This document shows, piece by piece, positions 35,986 to 48,951 of a stretch of 64,000 bases of DNA; the stretch's first letter is position 1; the number at the start of each line of letters is the position of its first letter. A model generated the notes under the pieces. That model searched no databases and was not told the origin of the DNA. It saw only the letters and a program-made list of their open reading frames with translations. Made by a program: the position numbers and the translations under genes. This stretch comes from Actinomycetospora termitidis (GTDB lineage Bacteria > Actinomycetota > Actinomycetes > Mycobacteriales > Pseudonocardiaceae), in the NCBI RefSeq assembly GCF_030286555.1, contig NZ_JASVWF010000004.1, forward strand, positions 62,001 through 126,000, in the 5' to 3' direction.

Positions 35986-37247
35986 ATCACGTGGAGGGCT
36001 TCGAGCACATCGAGCGGGCGATCTCCGACATCGCGGCCGGTAAGGCCGTGGTGGTCGTCGACGACGAGGACCGCGAGAACGAGGGCGACCTGATCTTCGC
36101 CGCCGAGAAGGCGACGCCGGAGCTGGTCTCGTTCATGGTCCGCTACACCTCGGGCTACATCTGCGTCCCGCTCACCGCCGAGACGTGCGACCGGCTCGAC
36201 CTCCCGCCCGCGCACTCGATCAACCAGGACCGGCACGGCACCGCGTACACGGTGTCGGTCGACGCCCGCGAGGGCATCGGCACGGGCATCTCCGGGGCCG
36301 ACCGCGCCCGCACCATCCGCGTGCTCGCGGACCCCGACTCCGCCGCCACCGACCTCTCCCGGCCGGGGCACGTCGTCCCGCTGCGGGCCCGGGAGGGCGG
36401 GGTGCTGCGCCGTCCCGGCCACACCGAGGCCGCGGTCGACCTGGCCCGCCTCGCCGGGCTCGTGCCCGCCGGCGCGATCTGCGAGATCGTCTCCCAGAAG
36501 GACGACGGGGAGATGGCCCGCTACGACGAGCTCGCGGTGTTCGCCGACGAGCACGACCTCGCGCTGATCACGATCAAGGACCTGATCGCCTACCGGCGCC
36601 GCTCGGAGAAGCAGGTGGCCCAGGTCGCGCACGCGAACATCCCCACCGACCACGGGGACTTCGTCGCCTACGGCTACGACTCGCTGCTCGACGGCATCGA
36701 GCACGTCGCCCTGGTGTACGGCGACCTCGGCGACGGCGAGGACGTGCTCGTCCGGGTGCACTCCGAGTGCCTCACCGGCGACGTGCTCCGCTCGCGGCGC
36801 TGCGACTGCGGCCCGCAGCTCGACGCGGCCATGGCCGCGGTCGCCGCCGAGGGCCGCGGGGTCGTGCTCTACGTGCGCGGCCACGAGGGCCGGGGGATCG
36901 GCCTGATCCACAAGCTGCAGGCCTACCAGCTCCAGGACGCCGGGGCCGACACCGTCGACGCCAACCTGGCGCTCGGCATGCCGGCCGACGCCCGCGACTA
37001 CGGCACCGGCGCCCAGATCCTCGCCGACCTCGGGGTCCGGAGCATGCGCCTGCTGACCAACAACCCGGAGAAGCGCGCCGGGCTGGAGGGCTACGGGCTG
37101 GAGATCCTCGACCGGGTCGCCCTCCCGCTGCGCGCCACCCCGGAGAACCTGCGCTACCTGCGGACCAAGCGTGACCGCATGGGCCACGACCTCGAGGGCC
37201 TCGACGCCTACGAGGACGGCCTGGTGAACAGCGAGTCCGGCGCATGA
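35982..37247 (+). CDS. ribBA: Bifunctional DHBP synthase / GTP cyclohydrolase II
   Basis: Feeds both branches of riboflavin synthesis. It has 421 residues. The RibB half (about 1-205) has [20 protein letters not shown] with the acidic metal loop and [25 protein letters not shown]. The RibA half has [20 protein letters not shown] with the zinc cysteines and [15 protein letters not shown] for GTP. Both sets of catalytic residues look intact. The GTG at 35982 overlaps the ribE stop, and ribH overlaps its stop (ATGA). Confidence 0.97.
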
Positions 37248-37750
37248 GCACCCAGGGACGCCCGGAGATCGCGGTCCCCGACGCGACCGGCCTGCGGCTC
37301 GGCATCGCGGCGACCCGCTGGAACGGCGAGATCGTCGAGACGATGCTCGAGCGGGCCCTGCTCGCCGCCGAGCGCGGCAACGTCGAGAAGCCGACCGTGG
37401 TGCACGTGGCGGGCGCGATGGAGCTGCCGGTGGTCTGCCAGGGCCTGGCGGCCGGGCACGACGCCGTCGTCGGCCTCGGGGTCGTCATCCGCGGCGCCAC
37501 GCCGCACTTCGACTACGTCTGCGACGCGGTGACGGCGGGTCTGCTGCGCGTCGGGCTCGACGAGCGCACCCCGGTGGGCAACGGCGTCCTGACGACGGAG
37601 AACCTGGACCAGGCGTGGGAGCGCGCCGGGACCCCGGAGTCGACCGAGGACAAGGGCTTCGAGGCGGTCGTCGCCGCGCTGGACGCCGCCCTCACCCTCG
37701 CCGATCTGCGCGACGGTGCCCGCCGGGCGCCGGTCGGGTTCTCGCGATGA
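37244..37750 (+). CDS. ribH: 6,7-dimethyl-8-ribityllumazine synthase
   Basis: Condenses the pyrimidinedione with DHBP to make lumazine. It has 168 residues. Signatures: [60 protein letters not shown] with the His at the active site, and [17 protein letters not shown]. It is translationally coupled to ribBA upstream and to the PH-domain gene downstream (both ATGA). Confidence 0.97.
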
Positions 37751-38229
37751 CGACCGACAGCCCCGTCGTCGTCCCGCCCGAGGGCCTCGATCTCGGTCCG
37801 GTCGAGCTGGAGGTCCGCCCGGTCCGCATCCGCTGGGTCGCCTGGGTGATCGCGATCCTGCTGTTCGCGTTCTTCGCGTCCGGGGCGCTGCTCGTGTACG
37901 TCGAGTCGGCGGGGTTCAACTTCCGGCCGGCGGACCAGGTCGCGATGGTCGTCCTCGGTCTGCTGCTGGCGGGCGGGGCGCTGCTGTTCACCCGGCCGCG
38001 GCTGCGCGCGGGCTCCGGCGGGATCGAGGTCCGGGCGACCCTCCTGACGCGACGGGTCGCCTGGGCCGACGTCGTCGGGATCAGCTTCCCCGACGGCGCG
38101 CAGTTCGCCCGGGTCGACCTGCCCGACGACGAGTACCTGGTGGTCGGGGCGCTGCAGGCCGTGGACAAGGGGCACGCGGTGGCCGGGGTGACGCGCCTCC
38201 GCGAGCTCCACGCGCAGTACGCGAGCTGA
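37747..38229 (+). CDS. PH-domain membrane protein (Rv1417-like)
   Basis: A 160-residue protein with two membrane helices (about residues 32-55 and 66-84) joined by a short loop, followed by a soluble domain of about 70 residues with the strand pattern of bacterial PH-like domains (GGIEVRATLLTRRVAWADVV). The family sits after ribH in many actinobacteria and its function is unknown. The ATG overlaps the ribH stop, and its own stop shares a base with the pyrD ATG (TGATG), so it is in one operon with both. Confidence 0.88.
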   Translation: MTTDSPVVVPPEGLDLGPVELEVRPVRIRWVAWVIAILLFAFFASGALLVYVESAGFNFRPADQVAMVVLGLLLAGGALLFTRPRLRAGSGGIEVRATLLTRRVAWADVVGISFPDGAQFARVDLPDDEYLVVGALQAVDKGHAVAGVTRLRELHAQYAS

Positions 38230-39245
38230 TGCCCCTCTACGACGCGCTGTTCCGCCACGTCGCCGTCCGCGTCCCGGCGGAGCGGACCCACCGGATCGGC
38301 CTGCGCGCCCTCGCCGCCGCGACCCCGGTCATCCCCGAGCAGACGCCGGACCCGTGCCTCGCGGTCCACGCGATGGGTCTGACCTTCCCGTCCCCGCTCG
38401 GCGTCGCCGCCGGGTACGACAAGGACGCCGAGGGCGTCCGCGGGCTCGCCCGCCTCGGGTTCGGCGCCGTCGAGATCGGCACCGTGACCGCGCGGCCGCA
38501 GCCGGGCAACCCGCGGCCCCGCCTGTTCCGGCTGCCCGAGGACCGCGCGCTGGTCAACCGCATGGGCTTCAACAACGCCGGCGCGGACGCGGTGGGCGAA
38601 CGGCTCGCGACCCTGCGCCGCGGCGGCCCGCTCGGCACCGTCCTCGGCGTCAACATCGGGAAGTCGAAGGCCGCCACGGGCCCGGAGCAGACCGTCGCGG
38701 ACTACCGCTACTCCGCCCGCGTCCTCGGCCCGCTCGCCGACTACGTCGTCGTCAACGTCTCCTCGCCGAACACCCCGGGTCTGCGCGACCTGCAGGGCGT
38801 CGACGCGCTGGAACCGCTGCTCACGGCGGTGCGCGACGAGCTCGGTGCCACCCCGCTGCTCGTGAAGATCACCGCCGACCTCGACGACGACGGGGTGGAC
38901 GCGGTCGCCGACCTCGCCGTCGCCCTGGGCCTCGACGGCGTCATCGCCACCAACACGACGGTCTCGCGCACCGGCCTCGTCACCGACCCCGCCACGGTCG
39001 CGGAGACCGGGACCGGCGGCCTGTCGGGCGCCCCGCTCGTCGAACCGGCCCGGGCGGTCCTGGCCCGACTGGTCTCCCGCGTCGGCGGGCGGCTCACGAT
39101 CGTCTCGGTCGGCGGGATCGCCGACGCCGCCGAGGCGCGGCGCCGACTCGAGGCCGGTGCGACCCTCGTGCAGTCCTACACGGGCTTCGTCTACGGCGGC
39201 CCCGCCTGGCCCTCGCGGGTCAACGCGGATCTCGCCCGTTCCTGA
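38229..39245 (+). CDS. pyrD: Dihydroorotate dehydrogenase (quinone), class 2
   Basis: Oxidises dihydroorotate to orotate, passing electrons to menaquinone at the membrane. It has 338 residues. The N-terminal amphipathic region MPLYDALFRHVAVRVPAERT is the class 2 quinone tunnel. LGVAAGYDKDAEGVRGLARL, NRMGFNNAGADAV, VVNVSSPNTPGLRDLQ (with catalytic Ser) and VGGIADAAEARRRLEAGATL follow. It completes the UMP pathway started in the pyr operon 13 kb upstream. Directly after the stop a 48-bp repeat array begins. Confidence 0.97.
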   Translation: MPLYDALFRHVAVRVPAERTHRIGLRALAAATPVIPEQTPDPCLAVHAMGLTFPSPLGVAAGYDKDAEGVRGLARLGFGAVEIGTVTARPQPGNPRPRLFRLPEDRALVNRMGFNNAGADAVGERLATLRRGGPLGTVLGVNIGKSKAATGPEQTVADYRYSARVLGPLADYVVVNVSSPNTPGLRDLQGVDALEPLLTAVRDELGATPLLVKITADLDDDGVDAVADLAVALGLDGVIATNTTVSRTGLVTDPATVAETGTGGLSGAPLVEPARAVLARLVSRVGGRLTIVSVGGIADAAEARRRLEAGATLVQSYTGFVYGGPAWPSRVNADLARS

Positions 39246-39881
39246 TGGCGGGTCCTGCCGGGCGCGCCGCCGTTGCGTCGCGCACACGGCCCGCCCGCCC
39301 GACCTACCCCGAACCCGCGTTGCGTCCCGCACACGGCCCGCCCGCTCGATCCAGTCCGAACCCCGCATTGCGTCCCGCACACGGCCGACCCGGTCGGTCC
39401 ATCGTCGGACGAGCGTTGCGTCCCGCACACGGCCGGGCGGCCGGTCCACCTCCTGACGAACGTTGCGTCCCGCACACGGCCGGACCGGTCGGTCCACCTC
39501 TGCGCGAGCGTTGCGTCCCGCACACGGCCGACCCGGTCGGTCCATCGTCGGACGAGCGTTGCGTGCCGCACACGGCCGGGCCGGTCGGTCCACCTCCTGA
39601 CCAGCGTTGCGTCCCGCACACTGCCAGGCCGGCCGGTCCACCTCCGCGCGGGCGTTGCGTCCCGCAACGCAGGTTCCGCGACCTGCGTCGGTCTCCAGCC
39701 GTGTGCGTCCCGCAACGCGAGTGCCGCGCCGTGCGCCGATCTCCAGCCGTGTGCGTCCCGCAACGCGAGTGCCGCGACGTGCGCCGGCCTCCAGCCGTGT
39801 GCGTCCCGCAACGCCGGCGCCCGCCCACCCCCGCAACGCCCACCGCGCCACGCACCCCGGCGCCCGGCACGATGAGCACCC
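39246..39881. other. 636-bp intergenic region filled by repeat array 1
   Basis: No gene is supported. Long open frames on several strands here arise because the repeat is a multiple of three and free of stops. The region carries the array at 39269-39814, a short half-copy (CCGCAACGCC near 39830) and about 40 bp before the HAD gene ATG. Confidence 0.8.
39269..39814. repeat. 48-bp-period dyad array 1 (12 units, 9 direct then 3 inverted)
   Basis: Each unit has the core TGCG-N3-CGCA. Forward units read GTTGCG-N3-CGCACAC and start at 39272, 39319, 39367, 39415, 39462, 39510, 39558 and 39606 (steps of 47 or 48). The ninth, at 39653-39671, is a perfect palindrome GCGTTGCGTCCCGCAACGC. Inverted units read GTGTGCG-N3-CGCAAC at 39701, 39749 and 39797. 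Between cores are about 28 bp with partial similarity (for example CGGTCGGTCCA). The core centre varies (TCC, TCG, TGC) while the arms do not. Confidence 0.95.
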
Positions 39882-40568
39882 ATGACCGACACCGCGCCGG
39901 CCCGTCGCCCGAAGGTCGTGCTGTTCGACGTCTTCGAGACCTGCCTGCAGCTCGAGGGCCTGCGTCCCCGGTTCGTGGCGCTCGGCCGCCCGGAGCACGA
40001 GCTGGAACTGTTCTTCGCCCGGCTGCTGCACCAGGGCATGGCGATGACGCTCGCGGGGGAGGCGCCTGCGTTCCGGGTCGTCGCCGCGGACATGCTGCGG
40101 CGCACCAGCGGGCGTGACCTCACCGACGACCAGGTCGCCTCCGTCCTCGACGGTTTCCGCGAGCTCCCGGCCCACGATGATGTCCGCGAGGCGTTCACGC
40201 TCCTGCGCGACGCCGGGGTGCCCGCCTACGGGTTCACCCACGGCTCCGCCACGACCGCGAGCGCGGCGCTGGAGGCGGCCGGGGTCCGGGACCTGCTCGC
40301 GGACGTGTTCAGCTGCGAGGAGATCGCCTCGTTCAAGCCGCCGCGCCGGGTCTACGACTTCGCGGTGCAGCGGGTGGGCGGGGACGCGGCCCGCACCGCC
40401 CTGGTCGCGGTGCACTCGTGGGACGTGCACGGCGCGATCGCCGCCGGTCTGCTCGGCGGGTTCTGCGAGCGTCTCGAGGGTCGGGTCCCGGATGCCGTAC
40501 TCCGGCCGCACGTCGTGGCGGAGACCCTGGACGACGTCGTCGCCGGGCTGCTCGCCCTGCCCGAGTAG
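39882..40568 (+). CDS. HAD superfamily hydrolase (haloacid dehalogenase type II-like)
   Basis: A 228-residue protein with a Rossmann core and a helical cap. Motif I is VVLFDVFET (nucleophile Asp16; the residue two positions on is Phe, so the usual acid/base Asp of phosphatases is missing). Motif II is THGSATT, motif III Lys in EEIASFKPPRRVYDFA, and motif IV HSWDVHGAIAAG. Motif I without the second Asp resembles L-2-haloacid dehalogenases, but substrate is not determinable. ATG at 39882 is 67 bp after repeat array 1. It opens the block between the two arrays. Confidence 0.85.
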   Translation: MTDTAPARRPKVVLFDVFETCLQLEGLRPRFVALGRPEHELELFFARLLHQGMAMTLAGEAPAFRVVAADMLRRTSGRDLTDDQVASVLDGFRELPAHDDVREAFTLLRDAGVPAYGFTHGSATTASAALEAAGVRDLLADVFSCEEIASFKPPRRVYDFAVQRVGGDAARTALVAVHSWDVHGAIAAGLLGGFCERLEGRVPDAVLRPHVVAETLDDVVAGLLALPE

Positions 40569-40630
40569 GTTCGACGACCGGTCGCGACCACCACACGCGC
40601 CCACCACCGCCCCGACGGAGGTCCCTCCCC

Positions 40631-41125
40631 GTGTCCACCGAGCCGTCCACCGAGCAGTCGACCGAGCAGTCCATCCCTACCCCCGGCCTCACTCGCCGGC
40701 GCGCCCTGTGCGGGCTCGTCGTCGCCCTCGCCGCGCCGGCCGCCCTGGCCGCCTGCTCCTCCGGATCCGAGTCCGGCGGCCAGGCCCCGCCCGCCGGGGG
40801 CTCGGGCGGCGGCGGCACCACCACCGCGCCGCCCGCCGGGGGCACGCCGGTCGCGCAGATCCCGGTCGGTGGGGGCACCGTCGTGGACGGGCCGAACGGG
40901 CCGGTCCTGCTCACCCAGCCCCAGGCCGGCGTCATCAAGGCCTTCGACGCCGCCTGCCCGCACCAGGGCACACCCGTCGACCCGCCCGAGGGCGGCACGA
41001 TCACCTGCCCGAACCACGGCAGCCAGTTCGACGCCACGTCCGGCGCCCTGAAGAAGGGCCCGGCGGAGAGCGGCCTCACCCCGGTCGCGACCACCGTGGT
41101 GAACGGACAGGTGCAGTTCGCCTGA
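40631..41125 (+). CDS. Tat-exported Rieske [2Fe-2S] lipoprotein
   Basis: A 164-residue protein. The N-terminal signal has TRRRALCG (twin arginine) and a hydrophobic stretch ending LAAC, a lipobox, so it should be folded in the cytoplasm, exported by Tat and lipid-anchored. A Gly/Pro/Ser/Thr linker follows (about 45-75). The Rieske cluster ligands are C-P-H (about residue 109) and C-P-N-H (about 125). GTG at 40631 follows GGAGGTCCCTCCCC. No partner cytochrome or oxygenase is adjacent; it could be a standalone electron-transfer lipoprotein. Confidence 0.9.
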   Translation: MSTEPSTEQSTEQSIPTPGLTRRRALCGLVVALAAPAALAACSSGSESGGQAPPAGGSGGGGTTTAPPAGGTPVAQIPVGGGTVVDGPNGPVLLTQPQAGVIKAFDAACPHQGTPVDPPEGGTITCPNHGSQFDATSGALKKGPAESGLTPVATTVVNGQVQFA

Positions 41126-41130
41126 CCCTG

Positions 41131-41160
41131 GGCGAGCGGAGCGACGGGGCGGAGCGGGAC
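41131..41160. repeat. Short G-rich repeat GGCGAGCGNAGCGACGGGG
   Basis: This 30-bp stretch between the Rieske and helicase genes closely matches 35922-35951 in the end of ribE; after the shared 19 bases both continue AGCGGGAC, here with a 3-bp insertion. A weaker relative precedes rsmB near 33003. Confidence 0.6.
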
Positions 41161-41178
41161 GCGGGCAGGATGGAGCGC

Positions 41179-44100
41179 ATGCTCGCGCTGCACGCCGCCT
41201 GGTCGCCCGGCCGGGGACTCTGTCTGTGGGCCGAGGACCCGGCGCGCACCGCCGGCGACGCACCCCGCAGCCGCGCCCGCGGTGCCCGGCCGCACCCGTT
41301 CGCCGCGGACCACGAGCAGCTCCGCGCAGTCGCGGCGGCACTGGCGACGACGGGCGGCGAGGGTCAGGCGGTCCTGCACCTGCCCTCGACCGGCGGCCCG
41401 GGCAGCACCGACCGCGCCCCCGTCCGGTCGGACGCCGACACGGCACCCGCGGCGCTGGCCCCGTGGACCGTGCCCGTCCTCGAGCTGGACGCCGGGGCGC
41501 TGCAGCGCTCCGAGCCGCTGCCGGGCGAGGGCCCGGGGTTCGCGGTGCTCCGGGCGCTCGCGTCCTTCGCCGCCGACCTGGTCACCCGCGGGCGGCTCCT
41601 CCCCGCCCCCGACCCCGGTCACGACGACGGCGCCCTCGGCTGGCGCCCCGTCCTGCAGGGTCGCGACCTGGTCGCCGCCGACGCGTTCGCCGCAGCGCTC
41701 CCACCGGCCGTGCGCGCCGAGGCCGTCGACGGGCGGGCGTTGGCCGACGGCGTCGGCCCCGACCCGGCCGAGGTCGTCACCGAGGCCCTCACCGTGTTCG
41801 CCGACGCCGAGGCCCGGCACCGCCTCGTCGACGATCCGCCTGTCCCGGTCCTGCTGGAGGCCGCCGGCGCCGGCGATCTCGACGAGGGCCTCGCCCGCTG
41901 GGACGTCGTCGGCGCCCCGCACGCCGGGCCGGCGCGCGGCACCTTCCGGCTCACCGAGATCGTCGTCGACGACCTGGGGCACGCGGTCGAGGGCGAGCCG
42001 CGGTTCTGGCTGGAGTTCTCGCTGCAGTCCTCGCAGGACCCGAGCCTGCGGGTCACCGCCGAGTCGATCTGGCGCGACGCCGGGTCGCTGCGCCGCTGGC
42101 TCGACGACCCCAGCGAGGAACTGCTCGCCGAGCTCGGGCGGGCGGCCGCGATCTACCCGGAGCTCACCGACGCACTGCGGGTCCCGCGCCCGACCGGGAT
42201 GGAGCTGGACCGCGAGGGCACCCACCACTTCCTGCTCCACGTCGCCGCCGCCCTGGACCGCGCCGGGTTCGGCGTCCTGCTGCCGAGCTGGTGGACGGAG
42301 CCCGCGCGGCTGGGTCTCACCGCCACCGCGGGCGGCGCCGGCCCCGAGGGCGTCGTCGCGACGAACGGACGCCTGCGCCGCGAGGAACTCGTCGACTTCT
42401 CCTGGAAACTCGCCGTCGACGGGGAGTCCCTCTCCGACGAGGAGATGCGCGCCCTGGTGCACGCGAAGGCGCCGCTGGTCTTCCTGCGCGGGCGGTGGGT
42501 CGCGGTCGACCCGGAACGGCTCCGGGCCGGGCTGGAGTTCCTCGACCGGGCGCCCACGGAGGGCACGGTCGGTGACGTCCTCACCCTGCACTCGGCCTAC
42601 CACGACGACCTCCCCCCGGAGTGGGCCGCGCCGCTGCCCGTGGAGGACGTCGCCGCGAGCGGTCCGCTCGGATCGCTGCTCGCCGGCGCCGTCGACGCCC
42701 ACCTCGAACTGCTCGACGACCCGCCCGCCCTCGAGGCGACCCTGCGCCCCTACCAGCGGCGCGGGGTGTCGTGGCTCGCGTTCCTGTCCGGGCTCCGCGT
42801 CGGCGGGGTGCTCGCCGACGACATGGGCCTCGGCAAGACGCTGCAGGTCCTGGCGCTGGAGGCCCACGAGCGCACCGAGGAGCTCGCGCCGACCCTGCTG
42901 GTGGCGCCGACCTCCGTCGTCGGGAACTGGCAGCGGGAGGCGGCCCGGTTCACGCCCGGGCTCCGCGTCGTGGTGCACCACGGGTCGGGCCGGACGACCG
43001 GCGACCTCACCGCGATGCTCGCGGACGCCGACCTCGTCGTGACCTCCTACGGGACCCTCACCCGCGACGTCGCCGAGCTGTCCCGCCACCACTACCGCCG
43101 ACTCGTGCTCGACGAGGCCCAGCTGGTCAAGAACAACCGGTCGCGGGCGGCGCGTGCGGTGCGCACCGTCGACGCCGAGCACCGGCTGGCGCTCACCGGG
43201 ACGCCGGTGGAGAACCGGCTCGCCGAGCTGTGGTCGATCATGGACGCCGTCAACCCCGGCCTGCTCGGCGGCATCACCGCGTTCCGCGACCGCTACGCCG
43301 TGCCGATCGAGCGCCACGGCCGCTCCGACGTCGCGAAACGGCTCCAGACCGCCGTCCGCCCGTTCCTGCTGCGCCGGGTCAAGACCGACAAGGCCGTCGT
43401 CGACGACCTGCCGGACAAGATCGAGACCGTCGAGCGGTGCAGCCTGACCGCCGAGCAGGCGTCGCTGTACCAGGTGGTCGTCGACGAGATGACCGAGACG
43501 CTGCACGGGCTGGAGACCGCCGGCAAGCAGGGCATCGAGCGGCGCGGCCGGGTGCTCGCCGCGCTGACCAAGCTCAAGCAGGTCTGCGACCACCCGGCCC
43601 TGCTCCTGCACGACGGGTCGCCGCTCGCCCGCCGCTCCGGGAAGCTCGCGCGCGTCGAGGAGATCGTCGCGGAGATCCTGGCGGCGGGTGAGAAGGCGCT
43701 GCTGTTCACGCAGTTCACGGCGTTCGGCGACGAACTCGCCCCGCACCTCGCGCGGCGCTTCGGGGTCGAGGTGCTGTGGCTGCACGGCGGGACGTCACGC
43801 CGGGCCCGCGACCGCATGGTCGAGGCGTTCCAGTCGGACGACGGCCCGCCGCTCTTCCTGCTCTCCCTCAAGGCCGGCGGCACGGGACTCACGCTCACGG
43901 CCGCCCAGCACGTGATCCACCTCGACCGCTGGTGGAACCCCGCCGTCGAGGACCAGGCCACCGATCGGGCCTTCCGCATCGGGCAGAAGCGCACCGTGCA
44001 GGTCCGCAAGCTGGTCTGCGGCGGCACCGTCGAGGAACGCATCGACGACCTCATCGAGGGCAAACGCGTCCTCGCCGGCCAGGTCATCGGCGACGGTGGG

Positions 44101-44220
44101 GACGACCCGGACTGGCTCACCGGTCTGTCCACCGACGAGCTGCGCCGGATCGTCGCGCTCGACCCGGGCGCCACCGCGGAGGACGAGGACGACGAGATGG
44201 GGGACGACGATGCCGCCTAG
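41179..44220 (+). CDS. SNF2/Rad54-family helicase
   Basis: A 1013-residue DNA translocase. The N-terminal 500 residues are a bacterial SNF2-associated region (LHAAWSPGRGLCLWAEDPAR). The SF2 core has Walker A LADDMGLGKTLQVLALEA (about residue 548), VAPTSVVGNWQREAARF, the Walker B box VLDEAQLVKN (about 644), LTGTPVENRLAELWSIMD, then in the second lobe FTQFTAFGDELAPHL, LLSLKAGGTGLTLTAA and DRAFRIGQKRTVQV. The start could be ATG 41170 or 41179; AGGA spacing favours 41179. It overlaps the SWIM gene by 11 bp, a pairing known in bacteria. Confidence 0.93.
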   Translation: MLALHAAWSPGRGLCLWAEDPARTAGDAPRSRARGARPHPFAADHEQLRAVAAALATTGGEGQAVLHLPSTGGPGSTDRAPVRSDADTAPAALAPWTVPVLELDAGALQRSEPLPGEGPGFAVLRALASFAADLVTRGRLLPAPDPGHDDGALGWRPVLQGRDLVAADAFAAALPPAVRAEAVDGRALADGVGPDPAEVVTEALTVFADAEARHRLVDDPPVPVLLEAAGAGDLDEGLARWDVVGAPHAGPARGTFRLTEIVVDDLGHAVEGEPRFWLEFSLQSSQDPSLRVTAESIWRDAGSLRRWLDDPSEELLAELGRAAAIYPELTDALRVPRPTGMELDREGTHHFLLHVAAALDRAGFGVLLPSWWTEPARLGLTATAGGAGPEGVVATNGRLRREELVDFSWKLAVDGESLSDEEMRALVHAKAPLVFLRGRWVAVDPERLRAGLEFLDRAPTEGTVGDVLTLHSAYHDDLPPEWAAPLPVEDVAASGPLGSLLAGAVDAHLELLDDPPALEATLRPYQRRGVSWLAFLSGLRVGGVLADDMGLGKTLQVLALEAHERTEELAPTLLVAPTSVVGNWQREAARFTPGLRVVVHHGSGRTTGDLTAMLADADLVVTSYGTLTRDVAELSRHHYRRLVLDEAQLVKNNRSRAARAVRTVDAEHRLALTGTPVENRLAELWSIMDAVNPGLLGGITAFRDRYAVPIERHGRSDVAKRLQTAVRPFLLRRVKTDKAVVDDLPDKIETVERCSLTAEQASLYQVVVDEMTETLHGLETAGKQGIERRGRVLAALTKLKQVCDHPALLLHDGSPLARRSGKLARVEEIVAEILAAGEKALLFTQFTAFGDELAPHLARRFGVEVLWLHGGTSRRARDRMVEAFQSDDGPPLFLLSLKAGGTGLTLTAAQHVIHLDRWWNPAVEDQATDRAFRIGQKRTVQVRKLVCGGTVEERIDDLIEGKRVLAGQVIGDGGDDPDWLTGLSTDELRRIVALDPGATAEDEDDEMGDDDAA

Positions 44221-45028
44221 ACGTCGTGCCCCCAAGGAGCCGTTCCGCGAGAGGTTCCCCGAGTACGGGAAGCGGATCGCGGTCGAGGACGGCATCGCCG
44301 CGAAGAGCCGCCGCGGGGACATCGGCGAGTCGTGGTGGTCCGGCCGGTTCCTCGCGGTGCTGCAGGAGCTCGGCGTCGGCGGACGCCTGGACCGCGGCAA
44401 GACCTACGCCCGCGCCGGCCAGGTGATCGACCTCGCGATCGAGCCGGGTGAGGTCGTCGCGACGGTTCAGGGGTCGCGCGCCGAGCCCTACCGCGCGCGG
44501 ATCGGGATCACGACGTTCGCCGACGAGGCGTGGGAGGCCGTCGAGGAGGCGTTCGCCCGCGACTCCTGGTACGCCGCCTCGCTGCTCGGCGGCACTGTGC
44601 CCGACGACCTCGAGGACGTCTTCGCCGCCGTCGGCCTGTCGCTCTTCCCGACGGGGGCCCGCGAGATGCCCATGGACTGCTCCTGCCCGGACTGGTCCGT
44701 CCCCTGCAAGCACCTCGCCGCGGTCGCCTACCTCGTGGCCGAGCGGTTCGACGACGACCCGTTCCTGATCCTGCGCTGGCGCGGCCGCGACCGCGCGACG
44801 CTGCTCGCCGGCCTCCGCGACCGCCGCGACGACGTCGGCCCGGCGGTCACCCCGCTCGCGGACGTGCTCGACCGCTTCTGGACGGCGGGTGGGCCGCTGC
44901 CCGAGGTCGGCGGGCCGGTGTCGAACTCCGAGGAACTGCTCGACCAGATGCCGCCGCTCGGGGTCGCCCTCGACGGGGTCGACGCGCGGGAACTGCTGCG
45001 GCCCCTCTATCGGCGGTTCGGGGCCTGA
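44210..45028 (+). CDS. SWIM zinc-finger protein
   Basis: A 272-residue protein with the SWIM motif CxCx(n)CxH: MDCSCPDWSVPCKHLAAVAY (about residues 154-172). The N-terminus (EPFRERFPEYGKRIAVEDG, then GESWWSGRFLAVLQEL) matches SWIM proteins encoded beside SNF2 helicases. These are thought to bind DNA or protein partners of the helicase; the joint function is not established. The ATG at 44210 lies inside the end of the helicase gene, so the two are translationally coupled. Confidence 0.9.
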   Translation: MPPRRRAPKEPFRERFPEYGKRIAVEDGIAAKSRRGDIGESWWSGRFLAVLQELGVGGRLDRGKTYARAGQVIDLAIEPGEVVATVQGSRAEPYRARIGITTFADEAWEAVEEAFARDSWYAASLLGGTVPDDLEDVFAAVGLSLFPTGAREMPMDCSCPDWSVPCKHLAAVAYLVAERFDDDPFLILRWRGRDRATLLAGLRDRRDDVGPAVTPLADVLDRFWTAGGPLPEVGGPVSNSEELLDQMPPLGVALDGVDARELLRPLYRRFGA

Positions 45029-45040
45029 CCGGGTAGAACG

Positions 45041-45772
45041 GTGATCGTGGCACGCATCCTGCTGATCGTCGCGCACCCCGACGACATCGACTTCGGCAGC
45101 GGCGGCTCGGTGGCGCAGTGGGTCGCCGAGGGCAACACCGTCGACTACTGCATCTGCACCGACGGCGACGCCGGCGGGTACGACGAGGCCGTGGGTCGCG
45201 TCGAGATGGCCGAGCTGCGGCGCAAGGAGCAGCGCGCGGCCGCCGACGTGTACGGCGTGCACGAGATCGACTGGCTCGGGCACCCCGACGGCCGCCTCTA
45301 CGTCACCCACGAGCTGCGCCGCGACATCTCCCGCTCGATCCGCCGCCGTCGCCCGGACCGGGTCGTCGTCCAGTCGCCGACCCGCAACATCCGCAGCACC
45401 TACGGCAGCCACCCCGACCACATCGCCGCCGGCGAGGCCGCGATGTGCGCGGTGTATCCGGACGCCCGCAACCCGTTCGCCCACCCGGAGCTCCTCGCCG
45501 ACGAGGGCCTCGAGGCCTGGACGGTGGGGGAGACCTACATCGCGAACCCCGGCGAGGGCGCGGACCTCTACGTCGACATCACCGACGTGATGGACCGCAA
45601 GATCGAGGCCCTGCGCGCCCACGAGTCCCAGACCGCCCACATGACCGACCTCGCCGAGCGCATGCAGATGTGGGGCTACGCCCAGGCCAAGGCCGCGGGC
45701 TGGTGCTCCGACGGGACCCCGCCCGAGGAGCGCCGCTACGCCGAGGGCTTCCTCGTCCTCGACACCAAGTAG
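45041..45772 (+). CDS. PIG-L/LmbE family deacetylase
   Basis: A 243-residue zinc-dependent N-deacetylase. Zinc ligands and base are in ILLIVAHPDDIDFGSGG (His12, Asp14/15) and GSHPDHIAAGEA (His near residue 125). MshB and Mca of mycothiol metabolism belong to this family but are about 290-300 residues; this is shorter, so the substrate is open. ELRRKEQRAAADVYG is the family helix after the first motif. GTG 45041 or GTG 45047 are both possible. It starts 12 bp after the SWIM gene and ends where repeat array 2 begins. Confidence 0.88.
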   Translation: MIVARILLIVAHPDDIDFGSGGSVAQWVAEGNTVDYCICTDGDAGGYDEAVGRVEMAELRRKEQRAAADVYGVHEIDWLGHPDGRLYVTHELRRDISRSIRRRRPDRVVVQSPTRNIRSTYGSHPDHIAAGEAAMCAVYPDARNPFAHPELLADEGLEAWTVGETYIANPGEGADLYVDITDVMDRKIEALRAHESQTAHMTDLAERMQMWGYAQAKAAGWCSDGTPPEERRYAEGFLVLDTK

Positions 45773-46269
45773 CCCCTTCACGACGCCGGGTCGGTGCGGC
45801 TCGTGTGGTCGCATTGCGCGACGCACACGGCCCGGCCGCCTCGCTCCCCGCGGAACCGGCGTTGCGCGACGCACACGGTCAGGCCGCCCTGCTCCCCGCC
45901 GCACCGGCGTTGCGCAACGCACACGGCCCGGCCGCCTCGCTCCCCGCCGCACCGGCGTTGCGCGACGCACACGGCGGGCCGAGCGTCTGGCCCATGAGTG
46001 CCACGGCACGCATCTTTCATGCCTGCGCGCGAGCGTGTGCGTCCCGCAACGCCCCGCCGACCCGGTACCGACCCCTCCAGCCGTATGCGTCCCGCAACGC
46101 CCCGCCGACCGAGCACCGACCCCTCCAGCCGTGTGCGCCACGCAACGCCTCGCCGACCGGGCACCAACTCCTCCGGCCGTGTGCGCCACGCACATTCCTG
46201 ACGTGGCATCCGGAGCAAGTGCGTCCGAACGACACCCGGCGCGCCCCCGGCGTTCCTACCGTCCGCTGC
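45773..46269. other. 497-bp intergenic region filled by repeat array 2
   Basis: No gene is supported. It holds array 2 (45811-46194) and about 75 bp with the promoter region of the MarR gene. The unrepeated centre (about 45975-46034) contains GCATCTTTCATGC, a small dyad between the two sets of oppositely oriented units. Confidence 0.8.
45811..46194. repeat. 48-bp-period dyad array 2 (8 units, 4 direct then 4 inverted)
   Basis: Forward units GTTGCG-N3-CGCACAC begin at 45813, 45861, 45909 and 45957, each exactly 48 bp apart, with centres CGA, CGA, CAA and CGA. Inverted units GTGTGCG-N3-CGCAAC begin at 46035, 46083, 46131 and 46179, again every 48 bp, with centres TCC, TCC, CCA and CCA; the last ends CGCACA. 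The cores match array 1, and the sequence CTCCAGCCGTGTGCG is shared by inverted units of both arrays, while the 28-bp spacers otherwise differ between arrays. Confidence 0.95.
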
Positions 46270-46815
46270 ATGCCCGACATCACGATCGACCCCTTCCCGT
46301 CCTGGGGTGCCGAGAAGGACGAGGAGTGCGCATGGATCGCGGACCGGATCCTCCACCACCTGCTCCCGGCCGCGACGGCGCTGCACCGGGCGAACGCGGT
46401 CGAACTCGGACTGGACCCCGCCGAGCTGGCGATCGTCGAGGTGCTCGGAACCGTCCGCGCGCTCCGGCTGACCGCGGTGGCGGACCGCGTCGCCCTCAGC
46501 CACGCCGCGACCTCGCGCGCGACGTCACGGCTGGCGGAGCGGACGTGGGTCGACCGGTGCAGCGAGGTGCACGGCTACGTCGAGATCACGCGGGCCGAGG
46601 GGACGACCGCCGTGCTCGCCGCCTCGCTGCAGGACGTGCGCAGTCCCCTGGCCGCGGCCGTCGAGGCGCTCGCGCCGGCGGACCGGGCGACCGTGCTCCG
46701 GTTCCTCGACGAGGTCGTCGAGATCATCACCGTCCGGGCCCGCTCCCGAGGTGACCGACGCCTGGAGCGCACCCTCGTGCGGCGCCGTCGGGAGTGGTTG
46801 CGCGACGAGTGGTGA
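46270..46815 (+). CDS. MarR-like winged-helix regulator
   Basis: A 181-residue protein. The winged helix is at about residues 45-115 (LDPAELAIVEVLGTVRALRL, then TAVADRVALSHAATSRATSR LAERTWV); an EITRAEGTTAVLAAS wing follows, then a C-terminal dimer helix with a very Arg-rich end. This order matches MarR-family regulators. The ligand and targets are unknown. ATG at 46270 starts MPDITIDPFPSWGAEKDEE. It is 75 bp after repeat array 2 and is followed by a 7-bp perfect hairpin. Confidence 0.8.
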   Translation: MPDITIDPFPSWGAEKDEECAWIADRILHHLLPAATALHRANAVELGLDPAELAIVEVLGTVRALRLTAVADRVALSHAATSRATSRLAERTWVDRCSEVHGYVEITRAEGTTAVLAASLQDVRSPLAAAVEALAPADRATVLRFLDEVVEIITVRARSRGDRRLERTLVRRRREWLRDEW

Positions 46816-46830
46816 CACGCCCGGACGCAA

Positions 46831-46849
46831 GTGTCTCCCCACGAGACAC
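46831..46849 (+). terminator. Hairpin GTGTCTC-N5-GAGACAC after the MarR gene
   Basis: A perfect 7-bp stem with a CCCAC loop, 15 bp after the MarR stop. Its right arm starts a direct repeat, GACACGCCGAAC and GACACGCCGAGA (46845-46868), and GAGACACGCC occurs again at 46901 just before a possible uvrC -10 TACGCT (46911-46916). It may therefore be an operator and not a terminator. Confidence 0.4.
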
Positions 46850-46926
46850 GCCGAACGACACGCCGAGACCACCCGCTTGGGTGCACGCCGACACGCTGAG
46901 GAGACACGCCTACGCTGGTGCCCGCC

Positions 46927-48951
46927 ATGGCCGATCCGAGCACCTACCGCCCCGCCCCGGGAACCATCCCGGAGGCGCCTGGCGTCTACCGGTTCTCCGA
47001 CGCGGGCGGCCGCGTGATCTACGTCGGCAAGGCCAAGAGCCTGCGCAGCCGCCTGAACTCCTACTTCGCCGACCTCTCGGGCCTGCACCCCCGCACCCGC
47101 CGGATGGTCACCACCGCGGCCGCCGTCCAGTGGACCGTGGTCGGCACCGAGGTCGAGGCCCTCCAGCTCGAATACAACTGGATCAAGGAGTACGACCCGC
47201 AGTTCAACGTCCGCTACCGCGACGACAAGACCTACCCGGTCCTCGCGGTGACGCTGAACGAGGAGTACCCGCAGCTCAAGGTGTACCGCGGGCCCCGTCG
47301 CAAAGGGGTCCGCTACTTCGGCCCCTACGCGCACGCCTGGGCCATCCGCGAGACGCTGAAGCTCCTCACGCGGGTCTTCCCGGCGCGCGTCTGCTCGCCC
47401 GGGGTGTTCAAGCGCCACGGCCAGATCGGGCGGCCGTGCATGTTCGGCTACATCGGCAAGTGTGCCGCGCCGTGCGTCGGCCGGGTCTCCGCCGAGGAGC
47501 ACCGGCAGATCGTCCTGGACTTCTGCGACTTCCTCGCCGGCCACACCGACCAGCTGATCAACCGCATCGAAAAAGAGATGCAGACCGCATCGGCCGACAT
47601 GGACTTCGAGCGCGCCGCCCGGCTGCGCGACGACGCCGGGGCGCTCAAGCGGGTCGTCGAGAAACAGGCCGTGGTGCTGGGCGACGGCACCGACGCCGAC
47701 GTCGTCGCGTTCGCGCTCGACCCGCTGGAGGCCGCGGTCCAGGTCTTCCACGTGCGCGGGGGCCGGGTGCGCGGGCAGCGCGGCTGGGTCGTGGAGCGCG
47801 GCGAGGAGGACTCGCTCGAGGTCCTCGTCGGGCAGTTCCTGTCGCAGTTCTACGGCGAGCAGGCAGCCCTGGCCGGGTCGGCCGACGACGCCGTGCAGCC
47901 GGTTCCCCGCGAGGTGCTGGTGCCGGCCCTGCCCGAGGACCACGCCGTCCTCACGCAGTGGCTCAGCGGGCTGCGCGGGAGCCGGGTGAGCGTGCGCGTC
48001 GCGCAGCGGGGCGACAAGCGGACGCTCGCCGAGACCGTCGAGCGCAACGCCAAGGAGTCGCTCACCCAGCACAAGCTCAAGCGCGCCGGCGACCTCACCG
48101 CCCGCAGCGCCGCGCTGGAGGAGATCCAGGAGTACCTGGAGCTCGACTCGGCGCCGCTGCGCATCGAGTGCACCGACGTCAGCCACGTGCAGGGCTCGGA
48201 CGTCGTCGCGAGCCTCGTGGTGTTCGAGGACGGCCTGCCGAAGAAGGCGGACTACCGCCGGTTCGCGATCCGCGGCGGTGCGGAGGGCGGCGATGTCGCG
48301 GCGATCGCCGAGGTCGTGCGGCGCCGGTTCCAGCGCTACCTGCGCGAGACCGCGGAGGACCACGAGCACGACCCGACGACGACGTCGTGCTCCGGCGAGA
48401 CCCCGGACGGCTCGCCGGCGTCGCGGGAGATCGACCCGGCGGAGATCGACGGGCCGCTCCCGGGCATCGACCCGACGACGGGCCGCCCGCGGAAGTTCTC
48501 CTACGCACCGAACCTGCTCGTCGTCGACGGCGGCGCGCCGCAGGTCGCGGCCGCGCAGGAGGTGCTCTCCGAGCTCGGGATCACCGACGTCGCGGTGTGC
48601 GGGCTGGCGAAGCGCCTCGAGGAGGTGTGGCTGCCGGGCGACGAGATGCCGGCGATCCTGCCGCGCACCTCGGAGGCGCTCTACCTGCTGCAGCGCGTGC
48701 GCGACGAGGCGCACCGCTTCGCGATCACCTACCACCGCCAGAAGCGGTCGGCCCGGATGACGACCTCCGAACTCGACGGGGTCCCCGGGCTGGGCTCGGC
48801 CCGCAAGACCGCGCTGATCAAGCACTTCGGCTCGGTGAAGAAGCTGCGGGCGGCCACCGTCGAGCAGATCACCGAGGTACCCGGCGTCGGGAAGCGGACC
48901 GCGGAGGCGGTGCTGGCCGCACTGAACCACGAACAGGGGGAGGCGTCGTGA
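46927..48951 (+). CDS. uvrC: UvrABC excinuclease subunit C
   Basis: Makes both incisions in nucleotide excision repair. It has 674 residues. The GIY-YIG nuclease is at residues 10-90 ([20 protein letters not shown]), a UVR helix at about 205-235 ([20 protein letters not shown]), the RNase H-like nuclease with [20 protein letters not shown], and a double HhH at the end ([20 protein letters not shown] and [16 protein letters not shown]). ATG at 46927 is preferred to GTG 46918 because [15 protein letters not shown] matches homologues. The stop overlaps rapZ (GTGA). Confidence 0.97.

Follow-up and report, generated by a model that had tools for sequence, protein, structure and literature searches.

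What is the array of palindromic cores that fills the 636-bp gap behind pyrD (39246-39881) in Actinomycetospora termitidis? The gap lies in a window of 64,000 nucleotides, i.e. the whole stretch of DNA that was analysed, from a source genome (here G000; other genomes are denoted in the same way) of 6.56 Mb in 30 contigs. An initial annotation described in this gap twelve TGCG-N3-CGCA cores, 47-48 bp apart, of which the last three are reversed. The extent of the gap, the twelve TGCGNNNCGCA cores, their steps and the reversal are all borne out, and the ninth core, starting at 39656, is symmetric. The first eight cores were also said to have GTT on the left and CAC on the right; the third has ATT, and the eighth has CACACT instead of CACACGG. 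A second array, regarded separately at that time, belongs to the same family. Each core is made of two half-sites, CGTTGCG (1) and CCGTGTGCG (2), and is called '>' when it reads 1-2 and '<' when it reads 2-1. In these terms the features of the window are as follows.

38229..39245, + strand: pyrD, dihydroorotate dehydrogenase (PF01180).
39271..39813, no strand: array 1, with eight '>' cores, one symmetric core and three '<' cores at a step of 47-48 bp.
39271..39623, + strand: '>' arm of array 1, cores CGTTGCG-N3-CGCACACGG, the third and eighth each with at least one change; TGCG starts at 39274, 39321, 39369, 39417, 39464, 39512, 39560 and 39608.
39653..39669, no strand: symmetric middle core of array 1, CGTTGCG-TCC-CGCAACG.
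39699..39813, - strand: '<' arm of array 1, cores CCGTGTGCG-TCC-CGCAACG; TGCG at 39704, 39752 and 39800.
39882..40568, + strand: HAD-like hydrolase gene (PF00702), 3' of array 1.
45041..45772, + strand: PIG-L gene (PF02585).
45812..46192, no strand: array 2, four '>' cores (TGCG starts 45815, 45863, 45911 and 45959) and then four '<' cores (46038, 46086, 46134 and 46182, the outer half of the last being indistinct).
46270..46815, + strand: gene 3' of array 2, with a weak MarR-like match (PF12802, 21.8 bits, below the cut-off of 27).

The first TGCG of array 1 follows the end of the pyrD stop codon by 29 bp, and that of array 2 follows the PIG-L stop codon by 43 bp. The pyrD protein puts the window within or close to Actinomycetospora, its closest named records being those of A. 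callitridis (77%) and A. chibensis (76%) and the rest being at 60% or less. The self-complementary TGCG-N3-CGCA pattern has 22 matches in the window, while 100 shuffles gave a mean of 3.3 and a maximum of 9. Open frames cross array 1 on both strands, as is common where the G+C content is so high, and the gene caller places no gene across either window array. A coding role of array 1 was rejected, since each 47-bp step changes the reading frame and the DNA is absent from sister species; the gap between pyrD and the HAD-like gene is at most 56 bp in 11 of 17 sister genomes. The view that array 1 is above chance and is not a gene, an insertion sequence or an ordinary CRISPR is upheld, and the conserved coding frame that the initial annotation had named as evidence against itself is represented by no called gene over either array.

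Array 1 is one of about 39 arrays in the source genome. Core pairs 45-51 bp apart occur 179 times in the whole genome versus twice for the control, the same pattern read backwards, which rules out an equal unit density in random DNA of this genome, the other observation that had been named as contrary. The 19-bp core CGTTGCG-N3-CGCACACGG is nearly invariant, and with at most one mismatch it is found 220 times in G000, 17 times in G005, 9 times in G006 and 0-1 times in each of the 15 other genomes of the genus. For the analyses below, 36 regions fetched from listed places together with the window gave 39 clusters with at least two oriented cores and 280 core calls, a few of which are spurious, e.g. 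within genes. The genome holds 102 exact double units, and the 100 listed are all within the sampled regions or the window; arrays lacking an exact double unit may be absent from this set. The logo of 222 units reads CGTTGCG-(T/C/G)(C/G)(A/C/G)-CGCACACGG; the units were picked with a 16-bp motif allowing up to one mismatch, which biases the selected columns upward; columns 0, 17 and 18, outside the search motif, are at least 95% conserved, and most spacer letters are near background. In the N3 of G000, a first T and a last A are rarely found together (7% observed, 18% expected), and the middle base is A or T in 2 of 228 cores. Symmetric 1-1 cores stand mainly in the middle of arrays, and 2-2 cores mainly at their outer ends.

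The wide centres of some arrays contain other palindromes. By eye, a second family of about 70 bp, AAGATC...GGACCGNTCGGTCC...GATCTTG, recurs in mid-array, e.g. in L158, L165, L167, L170 and L183, and a third, GCGAGTGCGAC...CAGGTTC...GTCGCACTCGC, occupies the centres of L170, L171, L179 and L186, with relatives of different sequence in G005 (L193, L230 and L251). Runs of CTTGTCG...CGACAAG palindromes are found in the centres of L173 and L174.

The arrays have a common architecture. All 33 two-armed arrays of G000 are arranged head-to-head, '>' then '<', when one stray core call within a gene at L156 is set aside, and six further arrays are one-armed; a simple orientation scan gave 27 clean, 6 one-armed and 5 mixed arrays. 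The step is exactly 48 bp in 177 of 202 cases. In ungapped comparison, spacers are 77% identical between neighbours in an arm and 75% between other members of the same arm, versus 40% between opposite arms and 44% between different arrays, the expectation from composition being 33%. Because spacers are alike within an arm and unlike between arms, the arrays are not simple inverted duplications, and the duplication of one arm was rejected for the family; the description of the whole of array 1 as an inverted repeat is thus right for its cores and wrong for its spacers. At one G005 locus (near 3098100-3098500) the spacers match in both arms by eye. Arm sizes are uncorrelated (rho 0.07), and in the 22 tandem settings arm size is independent of gene direction, so that a function, if any, would be two-way.

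The arrays are found preferentially behind genes, as called by a home-made caller in G000 and in the sister species. In G000, 22 arrays lie between tandem, 14 between convergent and 3 between divergent genes (n = 39), while gaps of at least 100 bp in the same DNA, which was sampled around arrays rather than at random from the genome, are 87 tandem, 22 convergent and 57 divergent (n = 166); divergent settings are accordingly rarer for arrays (3/39 versus 57/166, Fisher p 0.0007). With overlaps (negative distances) omitted, the median distance from an array is 38.5 bp to a stop codon (n = 48) versus 136 bp to a start codon (n = 25). Thirty-four of the 39 arrays are clear of called genes, and five partly overlap one. 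In six sister species, 28 arrays are tandem, 27 convergent and 6 divergent (n = 61), with median distances of 51 bp to stop (n = 82) and 108.5 bp to start codons (n = 40). The neighbours of the three divergent arrays and of one more, judged from the starts of their proteins, have no common theme.

Sought in the complete genome and in related genomes, as the initial annotation had proposed, the spaced core proved to be a family of this genome and its clade relatives. A looser motif common to its versions (GCG-N3-CGCACAC twice) was scanned in 18 genomes of the genus, and has 129 matches in G000, 50 in G010, 38 in G014, 30 in G009, 23 in G002, 17 in G006, 5 in G005 and 0 in the other 11, with 0 in all for the control. 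Within one clade of eight species, seven thus have the pattern, the exception, G011, being a genome 59% complete; the pyrD tree separates this clade from the other ten species with full support and is weak within it. Two of 190 family genomes beyond the genus match the looser motif, one of them with a single match; the second (G127:C1:6920570-6920748) has six matches of a 24-bp direct repeat, GCGAGCCGCACACACCGGGGCTGG, apparently unrelated. A strict version of the motif is found in 0 of 196 other genomes of the class, and the loose core-pair pattern has 1-2 matches in 7 of 279 family genomes outside the genus, which is about the control frequency.

Core and period, the latter taken from exact cores since a one-mismatch scan breaks some 52-bp steps into 2 and 50, differ between species. 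The core GCGTTGCG-N3-CGCACACGG is used in G000 at 48 bp and in G005 at 49 and 48 bp. G006 has CGTGTGCG or CGTTGCG as its left half and mostly a step of 50 bp (13 of 17 listed, the rest 44-51). G002, G009 and G014 have CCTGCGCG-N3-CGCACACA at 52 bp, and G010 has a left half of ACCTGCGCG or ACCGACGCG, also at 52 bp. In these last four species all 38 two-armed arrays are head-to-head, a count that keeps only cores having a same-direction neighbour, and 12 more are one-armed. The single two-armed array of G005 is head-to-head as well, next to three one-armed ones, and G006 has the clean order in one of seven arrays, six being mixed through symmetric cores that match both ways. Unit numbers vary strongly between species, the observation relevant to the recombination hot spot that had been among the initial proposals. 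A 45-bp TGCGTGCCGCAGC repeat of G002, G009, G012, G014 and G005 was set aside as separate from these arrays; a one-directional 45-bp repeat, TGCGTGCCGCAGC...GGCAGCTCCGCTCCGC, is seen in several genomes of the genus (L192, L195, L196 and L197).

Comparison of the flanks of 99 arrays gave 17 groups in which one locus has arrays in two to six species. The array 2 locus is common to six species, i.e. to G000 and five other clade species, and the array 1 locus is common to four. By eye, across the 18 genomes of the genus, arrays stand at the pyrD locus in G000, G009, G014 and G006; G005 and G010 have a single degenerate core there, and G002, G011 and the ten species outside the clade have no array; the array of G000 differs from those of G006, G009 and G014 in core and step. 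In species of the other clade (G003, G004, G007, G013, G016 and L077) the gap between pyrD and the HAD-like gene often holds, by eye, a single palindrome of 40-50 bp up to the next start codon, mostly of a CGTGAGTG...CACTCACG-like form. At shared loci the modal step is 48 in all ten G000 entries with data, and 52 in 27 of 28 entries of the 52-bp species (two of them ties, the remaining entry being 53); it is 50 at three of four G006 loci, the fourth being a three-way tie, and 48, 49 and 49 in G005. The period of an array goes with its species and not with its locus. In gapped comparison, spacers at shared loci are 59% identical, against 78% within the same arm. They come no nearer to each other than spacers of different loci in different species (58%) and fall slightly below different loci of one species (63%), these two classes being a random 5% of array pairs. 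Since the period tracks the species and the spacers at shared loci are unrelated, the address and the architecture are inherited, core and step go with the species, and the spacers turn over. The six G000 loci that could be aligned by both flanks in G005 have there one array, three a single core or vestige, and two nothing clear. On conservation of locus and copy number, which the initial annotation had proposed as a check, addresses are thus shared between species, whereas unit numbers differ and some loci lack an array in some species.

What is observed comprises architecture, position, a conserved core, a period specific to the species and loci in common. That the same addresses carry a core and spacing proper to each species suggests that some factor of the cell either reads or makes the arrays. 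We tentatively favour, as the best of several uncertain readings, that these are gene-end repeats of the REP/BIME kind with a new architecture, in which a putative lineage-specific DNA-binding factor reads core and spacing, and the array would act, perhaps, as a two-way boundary or terminator. Each core is a polar site on the DNA, and evenly spaced cores stand in two facing arms shortly behind stop codons. The factor, recognising core and spacing, would have changed both from species to species, and the sites at many loci would have been re-made to match. The bound arms would then form a gene-end boundary, at which transcription coming from either direction would most likely be halted or insulated, and their opposed polarity would let the boundary work both ways. 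Two of the initial proposals, a multi-site operator and a landing site for a nucleoid protein, fit best in kind with the invariant polar core, the steady spacing and the free spacer, the binding itself being putative. Several observations count against such a factor or boundary. Steps of 48, 49, 50 and 52 bp do not amount to a whole number of turns of the helix, and hence neighbouring sites lie on different faces of the helix; the arrays of G006 are mostly mixed, with steps from 44 to 51; and arrays come and go between species, as at the pyrD locus and the G005 loci.

A wider form of this idea, possible but with less to recommend it, is a chromosome-wide ruler system, in which a trans-acting factor or copying machine of the clade would set the letters of the core and the spacing, would re-make facing pairs at inherited gene-end addresses, and would have been switched among 48, 49, 50 and 52 bp, perhaps in the direction from 52. 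Some 60 arms of G000 have a common step, for which local duplication alone is insufficient, and either selection by a factor or a copying ruler would explain it. That core and spacing change from species to species at the same addresses amounts to a natural experiment, suggesting that a cell component specifies the sequence of a repeat and its step genome-wide while leaving the spacers free, a situation not described in the excerpts of the REP literature consulted. The search for the factor is made direct by this distribution, i.e. for a gene found in the eight species of the clade and absent from the other ten, whose changes track the period. The arrays also make it possible to test how the ends of genes are marked in bacteria with few T-run terminators.

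A neutral or selfish satellite, with arms that lengthen and shorten through tandem duplication, a unit length given by the copying mechanism or the founder, tolerance only behind genes and no reading factor, is possible though rather unlikely. It would account for the 75-77% identity of neighbouring spacers, for an N3 that is the same in 78 of 144 neighbouring same-direction core pairs, and for the presence of twelve cores of array 1 in G000 and one vestige in G005. Identity between spacers of different loci is also a little higher within a species (63%) than across species (58%) in the same 5% sample, and the 3' bias is compatible with tolerance, because it would arise as well if arrays were harmless only 3' of genes. 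However, the core is nearly invariant while spacers between arrays fall to 44%, the common step is kept across so many arms, shared loci track the period of the species, and a purely local process gives no head-to-head order at every locus.

Copying of arrays or arms between loci by a non-RAYT transposase, as in a mobile REP-like element, is improbable. In its favour, 52 of the 99 arrays are without a partner locus in the sampled set, which covers part of the loci of the species, and two G014 arrays (L361 and L363), 237 kb apart, are 91% identical over 298 bp and look like a recent copy; this copy seemingly takes in the end of the preceding gene. At L189, two adjacent arrays have units in common, L188 and array 2 in G000 are 85% alike over 81 bp, and one pair of G002 arrays is 91% alike over 76 bp; beyond the G014 pair and the L189 neighbours, no copy of recent date exceeding about 80 bp was seen within a species. 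Against it, 17 loci are common to species, and PF01797 (Y1/RAYT transposase) matched 0 of 18 genomes of the genus, versus 5 of 14 control genomes, by which mobilisation by a RAYT was ruled out. Insertion with target duplication was likewise ruled out by the flank-word test, in which the longest word shared by the flanks of the 39 arrays averaged 5.10, with 4.98 by chance (54 of 200 shuffles as high). A phage origin was rejected with four viral contigs of one core each, and a plasmid origin with no plasmid match to array 1.

An RNA element, in which transcribed arms form hairpins or a long duplex that ends or stabilises the mRNA or is cut from it, is more doubtful again. The structural RNA with a long branched stem that had been proposed retains the folding of both window arrays, which is better than that of shuffles (z -3.4 with 20 shuffles, -3.7 with 100), and the placement behind stop codons; the former is expected from facing complementary cores. 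Among 228 cores by 7 pairs, picked by similarity so that some variation is hidden, there are 18 one-sided pair-keeping changes, 43 broken cells and no two-sided compensatory change, on which grounds hairpin covariation was rejected, as was an RNA duplex between arms on their uncorrelated sizes. The fourth stem pair, T-A in all 211 G000 cores counted, is lost in the four 52-bp species, where it is C x A in 81/86, 46/50, 46/48 and 43/44 cores. Letters rather than pairing are conserved, which resembles a protein site on DNA. The G+C stem and T run of an intrinsic terminator are absent at both window arrays, the two sites found in 37000-48000 lying near 47.2-47.6 kb (shuffle mean 1.3), and no Rfam match reaches the gathering score in the window. 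Rho loading was ruled out for want of a steady C over G bias, G000 leaning to G and G002 to C. Least probable is a topological or nucleoid site (gyrase-like or a NAP landing) instead of a transcription boundary: arrays do lie behind genes and between convergent genes, and BIMEs bind gyrase and IHF (PMC2817692, in excerpt), but the arrays are confined to one clade.

How, then, do the arrays compare with known systems? Among the literature matches listed, in a scope that mostly left out subscription papers, no title or abstract describes these repeats. The RepRanger table (PMC12306157), in the part available, includes three Actinomycetota (Arthrobacter, Acidipropionibacterium and Acidimicrobium), not Actinomycetospora, and the main text of PMC3733652 is without the terms actinobacteria and Streptomyces. 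The repeats of a CRISPR run in one direction with unrelated spacers, while here the direction flips in all two-armed arrays and spacers within an arm are alike; the four window genes searched for protein families gave the matches listed above. The target-site duplication of a MITE is absent. According to its excerpts, BrickBuilt of Porphyromonas gingivalis (PMC4596501), a MITE with an inner minisatellite, resembles the arrays in its intergenic tandem units, small inverted ends and 19 copies in one strain, but differs in 23-nt units without spacers, promoter elements and two-way transcription. The TAACTGA repeats of Beggiatoaceae (PMC4679880, in excerpt) are similar in forming many intergenic sets thought to be bound by a regulator, and unlike the arrays in being heptameric direct repeats, most of them no more than several nucleotides upstream of start codons. 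The CGTC families (PMC3733652, in excerpt) likewise have no dedicated transposase and favour head-to-head dimers, but they have stems of 8-9 bp, loops of 4-5 nt and rare clusters, whereas the arrays combine an imperfect dyad around a 3-nt centre with long arms that run one way. The core also lacks the unpaired GTAG or CGTC that GTAG/CGTC REPs carry at a stem end. REP elements and BIMEs, as excerpted from PMC2817692, are short palindromic repeats outside genes that number more than 100 per genome and form regularly spaced groups, with proposed roles in termination and protein binding. The likeness lies in an extragenic palindromic repeat in high copy, here 220 cores with 34 of 39 arrays outside genes. 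The differences are the lack of a RAYT match, a period that is species-specific at shared loci, and units that are one-way within each of two facing arms (33 of 33 blocks), where BIME repeats alternate in orientation. While failing the tested features of RAYT-REPs, BIMEs, MITEs and CRISPRs, the arrays act like members of the wide REP/BIME kind.
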